Below, one piece after another: positions 27,845-34,531 of a DNA stretch of 43,958 nt. The notes under the pieces were generated by a model, which searched no databases, had not been told where the DNA came from, and saw only the letters and a program-made list of their open reading frames with translations. Source of the stretch: Lachnospiraceae bacterium (GTDB lineage: Bacteria; Bacillota; Clostridia; Lachnospirales; Lachnospiraceae); contig JAFSCH010000083.1 of assembly GCA_017436865.1 (NCBI GenBank), positions 1 to 43,958 of the forward strand, read 5' to 3'. Made by a program: the position numbers and the translations under genes. The first letter of the stretch is position 1; every line of letters starts with the position of its first letter.

Positions 27845-27935
27845 TATAGGAAAGTGCTGTAGCGTAGTGGCAGTTAGACAAGAATTTCGTAAGAAATTCT
27901 TGTCAAAGTGCGTGCGCTGGCACGCACTATTTTTA
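27845..27935 (+). repeat. Core-plus-two-hairpin repeat, copy A
   Basis: Core TATAGGAAAGTGCTGTAGCG continues to 27876. Hairpin 1: GACAAGAATTTC (27877-27888), loop GTAA, GAAATTCTTGTC (27893-27904). Hairpin 2: AGTGCGTGC (27907-27915), loop GCTG, GCACGCACT (27920-27928), then ATTTTT. Copies B, C and D of the same plan lie at 33382-33772. It follows an ordinary terminator, so termination is not its only possible role. Confidence 0.85.
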
Positions 27936-32463: not shown

Positions 32464-33378
32464 ATGAATGAAGTGATTTTTGATATTATTCCAGAGATGG
32501 AAGATGAACGAATTGATAAATGTTTATGTGGTTATATGGAGTCTTTATCACGTTCCTATATTCAAAAGATAATTAAAGATGGAAATGTATATGTAAATGA
32601 TTTGCCAGTAAAAGCAAATTATAAGGTTCGCGTTGATGATAGGGTTCGTTTTATTATTCCTGACAGTGTTGAGCCGGATATTCCGGCACAAGATATTCCT
32701 TTAGATATTATTTATGAAGATTCGGATATTCTGATTGTAAATAAGCCTAAGGATATGGTTGTTCATCCAGCACCAGGACATTATGAAGGAACAATTGTAA
32801 ATGCTGTTATGTTCCATTGTAAAGATGCACTTTCTGGAATTAATGGTGTTATGAGACCAGGAATTGTTCATCGTATTGATAAGGATACAACAGGTTCTCT
32901 TATTATTTGTAAAAATGATGAAGCTCATAATGATATTGCATCTCAATTAAAAGAACATTCTATTAATCGTTGTTATCGAGCAATCGTTTGGGGTCGTATA
33001 AAAGAAGATGGTATAATAAATGCACCAATCGGGAGACATCCGAATGATCGAAAGAAAATGGCAATCAATGAGCGTAATGGAAAGCATGCTATAACACATT
33101 ATAAAGTGTTGGAACGCTTTGATAAATTTACTTATATTGAATGTAGACTGGAAACAGGAAGAACTCATCAAATTCGTGTACATATGGCTAGTATAGGACA
33201 TCCACTATTAGGAGATGATGTATATTCCAGTGCTAAATCACCGTATAAAGTGCATGGTCAGACATTGCATGCAATGGTACTTGGTTTTGTGCATCCATCT
33301 ACAAAAGAATATATGGAATTTGAGGCACCGTTACCTGATTATTTTGAAGATATTTTGAGAAAACTTAGAAAAGGATAA
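32464..33378 (+). CDS. RluA/RluD-family rRNA pseudouridine synthase
   Basis: 304 residues. An N-terminal S4 RNA-binding domain (ERIDKCLCGYMESLSRSYIQKIIKDGNVYVN) precedes a catalytic domain with HRIDKDTTGSLI, in which the Asp is the nucleophile, and ETGRTHQIRVHMASIGHPLLGD. It isomerises uridines in 23S rRNA; the exact site is not deducible. Directly after lspA, as ylyB is in Bacillus. Confidence 0.94.
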   Translation: MNEVIFDIIPEMEDERIDKCLCGYMESLSRSYIQKIIKDGNVYVNDLPVKANYKVRVDDRVRFIIPDSVEPDIPAQDIPLDIIYEDSDILIVNKPKDMVVHPAPGHYEGTIVNAVMFHCKDALSGINGVMRPGIVHRIDKDTTGSLIICKNDEAHNDIASQLKEHSINRCYRAIVWGRIKEDGIINAPIGRHPNDRKKMAINERNGKHAITHYKVLERFDKFTYIECRLETGRTHQIRVHMASIGHPLLGDDVYSSAKSPYKVHGQTLHAMVLGFVHPSTKEYMEFEAPLPDYFEDILRKLRKG

Positions 33379-33381
33379 AGT

Positions 33382-33469
33382 AAAAAAGTGCAAGCTCAGC
33401 AGCTTGCACTCAAAGAATTTACTTTGTAAATTCTTTATTAACTACCACTACGTTACAGCAATTTCCTAT
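33382..33469 (-). repeat. Core-plus-two-hairpin repeat, copy B
   Basis: Read on the minus strand: core (33469 to 33439, containing GCTGTAACGTAGTGGTAG), hairpin 1 AAAGAATTTAC/GTAAATTCTTT (33412-33422 with 33426-33436), hairpin 2 AGTGCAAGC/GCTTGCACT (33387-33395 with 33402-33410), then a T-run (33386 to 33382). Stem sequences differ from copies A and C, but pairing is perfect. It lies just after the pseudouridine synthase gene and also encodes a plus-strand hairpin there. Confidence 0.85.
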
Positions 33470-33473
33470 GACT

Positions 33474-33562
33474 TAAAAAAGAGATTGCCCAGCGGCAATC
33501 TCTAGCAAGAATTTCTTGCGAAATTCTTGTCTAACTACCACTACGTAACAGCAATTTCCTAT
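33474..33562 (-). repeat. Core-plus-two-hairpin repeat, copy C
   Basis: Minus strand: core (33562 to 33532, containing GTTACGTAGTGGTAGTTA), hairpin 1 CAAGAATTTC/GAAATTCTTG (33506-33515 with 33520-33529), hairpin 2 AGAGATTGCC/GGCAATCTCT (33480-33489 with 33494-33503), then TTTTTT. It is arranged in tandem with copy B. Confidence 0.85.
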
Positions 33563-33565
33563 CAC

Positions 33566-33597
33566 AAAAAAAGATGCAGATAATGCATCTTTTTTTT
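33566..33597. terminator. Bidirectional terminator-like hairpin between repeat copies C and D
   Basis: AAAAAAAGATGCA (33566-33578) pairs with TGCATCTTTTTTTT (33584-33597), loop GATAA. The A-run and T-run allow termination on either strand. Confidence 0.75.
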
Positions 33598-33598
33598 G

Positions 33599-33772
33599 TA
33601 TGGTAGGAAGTGCTGTAACGTAGAGGTAGTTAATAAAGAGTTACTGTTCACACACAATGTCATTAACTTAACCTTAAATGCTAAAAATACAGAGATGTAA
33701 TAGTGTTTTGAGGGTTACTTAAAATGACATTGGGAGTGAACAGTAACAATAAAGAATTTACTTTGCAAATAT
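33599..33772 (+). repeat. Core-plus-hairpin repeat, copy D, degenerate and interrupted
   Basis: Core GGAAGTGCTGTAACGTAGAG and onward to 33631, then AATAAAGA, then a 108-bp insertion (33640-33747), then AATAAAGA again and AATTTACTTTGCAAATAT. Removing the insertion and one AATAAAGA restores the junction seen in copy B (GTTAATAAAGAATTTAC). The right arm of hairpin 1 is decayed and hairpin 2 is absent. Confidence 0.8.
33640..33747. mobile_element. MITE-like element 1, 108 bp, nested in repeat copy D
   Basis: Ends are inverted repeats starting GTTACTGTTCAC; the first 25 bases of each end match at 23 positions, with looser similarity for ~10 more. It is flanked by the exact 8-bp direct repeat AATAAAGA (33632-33639 and 33748-33755), and the uninterrupted site is visible in copy B. 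There is no coding capacity, so it is non-autonomous; the mobilising transposase is not in the window. An 8-bp duplication is known from several IS families (for example IS6, IS66, ISL3, IS256); the family here is undetermined. Confidence 0.85.
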
Positions 33773-33785
33773 ATCGTATTAGTGA

Positions 33786-33904: not shown

Positions 33905-34531
33905 ATGAATACAATTATTACAATTGGTCGCCAGTTTGGCTCTGGAGGACATGAGATAGGGGAAAAATTAGCTCAACATTATGGAATAAAATATTTTGAT
34001 AAAGAGCTTCTTTCGAGAGCAGCACAGGAAAGCGGATTTTGTGAAGAAATGCTAAAAAATCATGATGAAAGACCAACTAATTCATTTCTTTATAATCTAG
34101 TAATGGATACTTACACGTTTGGATATAATTCTTCATCCTTTGTTGATATGCCAATCAGCCATAAAGTATTTATGGCACAATTTGACACCATTAAAAAAAT
34201 TGCAGAGGAAGAGCCTTGTGTTATTGTAGGTCGTTGTGCAGATTATGCACTTCAGGAATTCAAAAATTGCCTTAATATTTTTATTTATTCAGATGAAAAA
34301 TCTAAGATTAGAAGAATAATGGAAAAATACGACATATCAGATGACAAAGCCAAAGATATGATGATTAAAAAGGATAAACAGCGTCAAAGCTATTATAACT
34401 ATTATTCTACGAAAAAGTGGGGACGTGCTGATAGTTATGATTTATGTATCAATAGCGGCATACTTGGTATTGAAGGAACTGTAAAATTGATTACTCAATA
34501 TATTGAAGAGTTTGAGGCGAGAAGAAAATGA
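33905..34531 (+). CDS. Cytidylate kinase-like family protein
   Basis: 208 residues. N-terminal P-loop-like ITIGRQFGSGGHEIGEKLA, then YFDKELL, CVIVGRCADYAL and a lid region with IRRIMEKYDIS. This matches the cytidylate_kin2 family (AAA/adenylate-kinase fold), common in Clostridia and distinct from the Cmk of the cytidylate pathway. The classical GxxGxGK(S/T) is changed to GRQFGSGGH, so true CMP kinase activity is uncertain. It has its own promoter with a structured leader and RBS GGAAAGGTGG. Confidence 0.82.
   Translation: MNTIITIGRQFGSGGHEIGEKLAQHYGIKYFDKELLSRAAQESGFCEEMLKNHDERPTNSFLYNLVMDTYTFGYNSSSFVDMPISHKVFMAQFDTIKKIAEEEPCVIVGRCADYALQEFKNCLNIFIYSDEKSKIRRIMEKYDISDDKAKDMMIKKDKQRQSYYNYYSTKKWGRADSYDLCINSGILGIEGTVKLITQYIEEFEARRK

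Follow-up and report, generated by a model that had tools for sequence, protein, structure and literature searches.

Insertion sequences of the IS66 family usually duplicate 8 bp of target DNA (excerpt of PMC3916326), and the Pseudomonas IS66 ends given in the excerpted text of PMC12888890 start with GTAA. For the IS4 subgroup IS4, Table 1 in the accessible part of PMC2266710 gives the end consensus -AATR--------WTW and target duplications of 10 to 13 bp, and the same source describes striking insertion specificity for some of these elements. Homing of an insertion sequence to the ends of another transposon is known from IS5075 and IS4321, IS1111-family elements that target the terminal repeats of the Tn21 family, which are Tn3-family ends; hybrids with two captured tips are not described in the portion of PMC8269217 available. 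Among small nonautonomous elements, MITEAba12 measures ∼113 bp, has the ends of a known IS and is flanked by short duplications; according to the excerpt of PMC6382973 it derives from one parent family and is present in 90 copies over many genomes.

The stretch of DNA analyzed here, referred to as the window, is a 43,958-nucleotide contig (C102; JAFSCH010000083.1) from a 4.2-Mb draft genome of a Lachnospiraceae bacterium (169 contigs; estimated contamination, 7.68%). It contains a 108-bp element that resembles MITEAba12 in the features listed above but has two parents and is single copy as a whole. We interpret the element, with a probability of about 0.83, as a nested mosaic of three layers: a structured repeat, an IS66-type mini-element inserted into it and an IS4-type core. 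It resembles IS66 in its 8-bp duplications and in the IS66-family transposase found between the tips of full-length elements, but the tip starts with GTTA, with GTAA in sister tips, and the interior of the window element is not IS66 sequence. Likeness to the IS4 subgroup IS4 lies in the YREK DDE transposase of full-length relatives, the left end of the core, which fits -AATR--------WTW, and the long duplications of other cores; the differences are a 9- to 10-bp duplication at the tips, against 10 to 13 bp tabulated, and the use of an IS66-type tip as target. Insertion sequences targeting transposon ends are already known; new here are the different families and the two-tip hybrids. The open-licence literature on Lachnospiraceae, clostridial and IS4 MITEs and on the 12-mer tip contained no report of the element, which is weak evidence of absence.

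Structured repeat and its locus in related genomes

The spacer that holds the element lies between an RluA-family pseudouridine synthase gene and a cytidylate kinase-like gene, and also carries the structured repeat, with two copies in tandem and a third one inverted (Table 1). This repeat is ∼93 bp long, and the stems of both hairpins were found, by eye, in a few alternative sequences with the pairing kept. The source genome contained 45 matches to the pair of repeat units, those of the window included; copies were read at 33381 to 33566 and at loci L029 to L058, and a more diverged core with 3 mismatches was seen on the minus strand of the window at 27846 to 27876. The repeat is confined to one genus among the genomes searched, being matched in 9 of 35 relatives, each of the same genus. 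At gathering thresholds, no Rfam family was identified in the window, the structured repeat included, and phage records gave no DNA match to 33381 to 33780. A REP/RAYT origin of the repeat was considered and rejected, as no repeat core was present in the examined stretches of four Y1 transposase loci of the source genome.

Likely orthologues of the cytidylate kinase-like gene (at least 74% identity) were identified in 16 genomes of the same genus. The RluA gene adjoins the orthologue in 12 of them and was not found in the examined stretch of the other 4. In the 12 syntenic genomes the spacer between the two genes measures 78 to 224 bp, compared with 526 bp here, and neither the repeat core (≤4 mismatches) nor the tip of the element (≤2 mismatches) was detected in any of the 12 spacers. 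In comparable relatives of the same genus, this locus lacks both the repeat block and the element.

Table 1. Coordinates, in the window, of the structured repeat, the layers of the 108-bp element and the flanking genes
Feature	Position	Strand	Basis
RluA-family pseudouridine synthase gene, upstream flank	32464..33378	+	TIGR00005, 328 bits
Structured repeat copy, two hairpins and conserved core; intact paralogous empty site	33381..33473	+	Repeat search, family D1
Second structured repeat copy, in tandem	33474..33566	+	72% identity to first copy; mismatch-free core pattern 33532-33562
Core of third, inverted structured repeat copy; insertion target	33604..33631	-	Inverted arm I1 33608-33642; 33604-33642 match at 90%
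Left 8-bp target duplication AATAAAGA	33632..33639	.	Exact
Left IS66-type tip GTTACTGTTCAC-ACA	33640..33654	+	Same 12-base tip in source-genome mini-elements and full-length IS66-type L330
78-bp IS4-type core, CAATGTCATT ends	33655..33732	+	Boundaries from 40 paired core elements
Right IS66-type tip GTTACTGTTCAC-TCC	33733..33747	-	Tip pairing, source-genome mini-elements
Right 8-bp target duplication AATAAAGA	33748..33755	.	Exact
Truncated remaining half-hairpin of third structured repeat copy	33756..33770	-	Direct repeat D3 33751-33770, 95%
Cytidylate kinase-like gene, downstream flank	33905..34531	+	PF13189, 198 bits

Insertion of a 108-bp element into a repeat copy

The original prediction, made from the sequence of the window, had placed inverted ends matching at 23 of 25 positions around 33640 to 33747, and this was reproduced: the arms (33640 to 33664 and 33723 to 33747) are 92% complementary (23/25), and the inner 78 bp of the 108-bp element runs CAATGTCATT ... 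AATGACATTG. The exact 8-bp target duplication that had been described was likewise recovered on both sides. Joining the flanks yields GGTAGTTAATAAAGAATTTAC, which, as had been claimed, is the junction of the intact repeat copy at 33381 to 33473; across 30 loci of the source genome, the window's included, this junction was matched exactly in 16 cases, with one mismatch in 6 and with two mismatches in 1. An inverted pair of equal quality with arms 60 to 400 bp apart was obtained in 0 of 106 resamples (first-order Markov, 400 bp each), and the real 400-bp stretch contained one such pair, with exact 8-bp flanks. Because no resampled stretch produced it, chance is a poor explanation for the inverted pair. 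Insertion of the element into a structured-repeat copy is well supported, and transposition is preferred over chance palindromy, as initially proposed, on the resamples, the paralogous empty junctions and the 12 of 12 empty same-genus loci. The order of events that had been read from the locus, with the repeat first and the element later, is supported by the duplication of the repeat's sequence, the empty junctions, the empty same-genus loci and the 8-bp duplications around pairs of the same tips elsewhere in the source genome.

In-place evolution of the element as a structural RNA or terminator hairpin, flanked by repeats that arose by chance, appears extremely improbable. Folded as single-stranded DNA, the element does form a long hairpin (z = −6.7), and its position is intergenic, but the exact 8-bp duplication consists of the repeat's own sequence, paralogous junctions are empty at 16 exact matches, the 12 orthologous spacers are all empty, and the window carries no Rfam family at gathering thresholds.

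MITEs are short, have inverted ends and flanking direct repeats, and occur in multiple genome copies. The first three features are present here (108 bp, 23/25 and exact 8 bp), but the whole 108-bp sequence is single copy in the source genome. Its parts recur separately, the tips in the source genome and in relatives and the core ends in relatives. The earlier description as a MITE-like element was retained for the mobile insertion and abandoned for a single MITE with 25-bp ends, since the 8-bp system comprises the outer 12 to 15 bp only; the remainder of the 25-bp end is an IS4-type end with its own boundary and, elsewhere, its own duplications of 9 to 12 bp. As a caution, what looks like one long MITE terminal repeat may be two stacked ends of different families.

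Tips of probable IS66 type and their 8-bp duplications

In the source genome, the tip GTTACTGTTCACNC (≤1 mismatch) gave 43 matches, compared with 5 for a reversed control. Pairing of GTTACTGTTCAC ends with ≤1 mismatch per end and 60 to 400 bp between them yielded seven elements of 108 to 148 bp, using 14 of the 43 tip matches; the 29 left unpaired under this rule count against the account. Each of the seven is flanked by an 8-bp duplication, exact in five and matching at 7/8 in two (re-paired control, 0/42), and among lengths of 5 to 12 bp exact repeats around these pairs were found only at length 8. The six pairs outside the window carry ACA at one end (6/6) and TCC (5/6) or TTC (1/6) at the other, and the window element likewise has ACA and TCC. 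In other genomes, 21 tip pairs were read, apparently from 20 places (L011 and L225 share the same flanks and look like one place in two collections, but each has its own row in this count): 8 showed an exact 8-bp duplication, 5 matched at 7/8, 1 at 6/8 and 7 at ≤3/8. None of 420 re-pairings was exact, and 3 reached at least 7/8. Viral contigs held 56 stretches with the bare tip pattern, and in 4 of these paired tips with a duplication of at least 7/8 were seen; the two-tip, TCC-end and tip-plus-L315-end patterns were unmatched in the viral contigs.

The search for a full-length IS with the same ends, suggested with the original prediction, recovered L330 with the window's tips and L315 with sister tips, but none intact in the source genome. 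L330 is a 2,272-bp element with GTTACTGTTCAC at both ends and the exact 8-bp duplication TAAATGGA; it is the only full-length IS66-type element found with exact GTTAC tips. Its transposase scored 51.6 bits against PF03050, above the cut-off of 23.1, and 110 bits against NCBIfam NF033517 (IS66), below the cut-off of 180. The 1,796-bp L315 has the tips GTAACTATTCAG and the exact 8-bp duplication CTATGGCA, and its IS66 transposase scored 135.6 bits against PF03050 and 254.5 bits against the NCBIfam IS66 model. Given L330, L315 and the 8-bp duplication usual for IS66 (PMC3916326, excerpt), the outer tips most likely belong to the IS66 type. Plasmid records gave two weak partial matches to the L315 IS66-type gene (5 to 6% covered), both named IS66 family transposase, and phage records gave no DNA match to it.

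The terminal bases of the tips are GTTA in the window and L330 and GTAA in the sister tips of L315 and in a second mini-element subfamily of the source genome. This subfamily, with GTAACTGTTCAG-like tips, was seen at L098 (1026 to 1158) and L104 (845 to 977), both with 8/8 duplications. Elements of ∼42 to 45 bp, consisting of little beyond two tips, were also noted in the source genome at L099 (about 1501 to 1545) and L104 (about 1473 to 1514).

Transposases in the source genome

No IS4 transposase of the group described below was found in the source genome by a single-protein query, which matched 8 of 35 relatives, or by a four-member profile, which was run without a positive control. Six PF01609 matches were located on contigs C76, C90, C107, C115 and C117, where none of the 43 tip matches lies. 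The one IS66 gene found is split between two frames, and no recognized tips were found near it. No intact transposase of the IS66 or the IS4 group was thus found in the draft, an absence left unproven by 169 contigs and 7.68% contamination. Unassembled full-length copies that break contigs should place some tip matches near contig ends, and 0 of the 43 lay within 280 bp of one. Because no intact transposase was found, the element can probably no longer move, or else the draft lacks its helper. A solitary IS4-type end, AATGTCATTTAGATAAGG, was seen in the source genome at 2328 to 2345 of L372 (contig C21), abutting an apparent structured-repeat half-hairpin; a second IS4-type end was not found in the examined stretch.

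IS4-type cores within the tips

The loci were collected by searches with the window element and with a tip-plus-core pattern, the latter giving 107 stretches (all 107 read), and the proportions of the classes given below are accordingly not estimates. At L063, L165 and L150, compound ends like those of the window element bound full-length IS4 elements, and the transposases between their tips scored 156.7, 144.0 and 145.8 bits, respectively, against NF033592 (cut-off, 115). The transposases of all four full-length relatives were above this cut-off, and the Y(2)R(3)E(6)K motif was present in the four aligned DDE transposases. IS4 relatives from Enterococcus (∼36% identity) have only the inner part of the end, (C/T)AATGTCATTAAGTTAAG, in common with them, the sequence outside it being unrelated. 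This inner part fits the IS4-subgroup IS4 end consensus. In the window core, the left end fits -AATR--------WTW, and the right end keeps CAATG and reads AGT at the place of WTW. The ISPepr1 subgroup, with duplications of 7 to 8 bp, was rejected because its end consensus, as tabulated in the accessible part of PMC2266710, did not fit by eye.

Forty paired cores were identified in the loci read: 5 with no tip, 22 with one tip and 13 with two. Of the no-tip cores, three had exact duplications of 10 to 12 bp, one had a duplication with one mismatch and one had none (L310; 8/10 by eye). The one-tip cores had exact 9- to 10-bp duplications in 17 cases, one-mismatch duplications in 3 and none in 2, and the duplicated bases belong to the tip, in most cases GTTCACNNN or ATTCACNNN. 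With exact 9-mers alone counted, a duplication was present around 15 of the 22 one-tip cores and in 33 of 462 re-pairings, where exact 9-mers sometimes occur because the target is common to these cores. The two-tip cores, the window's included, had no IS4-type duplication (0/13): the 10 to 13 bp tabulated for the subgroup was lacking around all of them, and the other classes had 9 to 12 bp. In four nested cases (L028, L198, L218 and L347), inner 9- to 10-bp and outer exact 8-bp duplications were found together, and as read from their sequence these directly show an IS4-type element within the tip of a tip-ended element.

These classes bear on whether the window element could be a simple MITE derived from a single IS4-type family, for which the whole 25- to 32-bp GTTACTGTTCACNNNCAATGTCATT would be the terminal repeat and 8 bp the duplication. 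Full-length IS4-type elements with compound ends and 8-bp duplications do exist (L063, 8/8; L200, 7/8). Nevertheless, six mini-elements of the source genome have the tip without CAATG, yet the same 8-bp duplications; elements ending in (C/T)AATG duplicate 10 to 12 bp away from tips (3/5 exact) and 9 to 10 bp within them (17/22 exact); and the Enterococcus IS4 relatives have these ends without tips. This single-family reading was dropped as improbable, since CAATG marks the IS4 boundary both in the Enterococcus relatives and in cores with one tip or none. Under the mosaic interpretation, each layer with its limits, and the duplications of either kind, can be traced directly in the nucleotide sequence. 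Apart from its ends, the window core is no more identical to a common 112-bp core than shuffled sequences are.

Proposed assembly of two-tip hybrids

Taken together, the loci form a readable fossil series in which one transposon family invades another at its ends, from uninterrupted tips through tips holding a core flanked by its duplication to two-tip hybrids. For the window we infer transposases as the agents: an IS66-family transposase would have inserted a nonautonomous mini-element with GTTACTGTTCAC-ACA and -TCC tips into the structured repeat, generating the 8-bp duplication AATAAAGA, and a 78-bp nonautonomous IS4-type element with CAATGTCATT ends would then fill the space between the tips, having replaced the interior of the mini-element. 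IS4-type elements of this group enter an IS66-type tip between GTTACT and GTTCACNNN, and the duplication that results is 9 bp long, or in some cases 10 bp. The IS4-type ends could become joined to both tips via recombination between copies in two tips or, alternatively, by an adjacent deletion running from one tip to the other. On either route the IS66 interior and the inner duplication would be lost, leaving a two-tip hybrid. No locus with two cores was seen among those read under the pairing rule used, so an intermediate with both tips occupied by a core was not found. Also weighing against the mosaic interpretation are the failure to find an intact transposase of either group in the draft, the tip pairs of other genomes and the two-tip hybrids that lack a clear 8-bp duplication, the single full-length element with exact GTTAC tips and its NF033517 score below the cut-off, the missing WTW at the right end of the window core, and the lack of resemblance between this core and the common 112-bp one.

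Outer 8-bp duplications at 7/8 or 8/8 flank 8 of the 13 two-tip hybrids, the window's included (L063 was read with a 4-base spacer). Of the five without a clear duplication, L150, L165, L182 and L209 matched at ≤2/8, and L154 has only a shifted 7-bp repeat. In two pairs of loci, with the TCC tip recognized by its last 3 bases, the same core lies in opposite orientations relative to that tip: a 112-bp core in L003 and L012 (84% when reversed) and a 283-bp core in L171 and L215 (96%). Because of these flipped cores, two-tip hybrids probably arose more than once.

Within the mosaic interpretation, the hybrid may instead have formed elsewhere, an IS66 transposase having carried the whole unit into the repeat rather than the hybrid being built in place. 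We regard this as a real possibility, somewhat short of an even chance. The duplications at 7/8 or 8/8 around the window element and seven further hybrids are what it would produce, and both tips of the window element are intact. However, entry of a core in place after insertion of an IS66-type element predicts the same duplications, the flipped cores of the two same-core pairs favor separate formation, and the window hybrid is single copy in the source genome. If such hybrids are mobile under an IS66 transposase, they would offer mini-elements a route to a new transposase partner. It is a tentative and rather doubtful extension that IS4-type elements home to IS66-type tips and, with both tips captured, become dual-mobility hybrids that keep IS4-type ends and gain ends movable by IS66; if true, an element could in this manner exchange its transposition system or acquire a second one.

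Insertion of the core into the center of a palindrome with a self-symmetric duplication, suggested by L310 and L311, was also considered for the two-tip form and rejected, as the two-tip flanks have no common direct repeat. The IS4 relatives at L310 (390 to 434 and 1982 to 2026), L311 and L118, from Enterococcus plasmids and the relative G010, lie near the center of palindromes or other inverted repeats, a location that hints at a preference of this IS4 group for hairpin targets.
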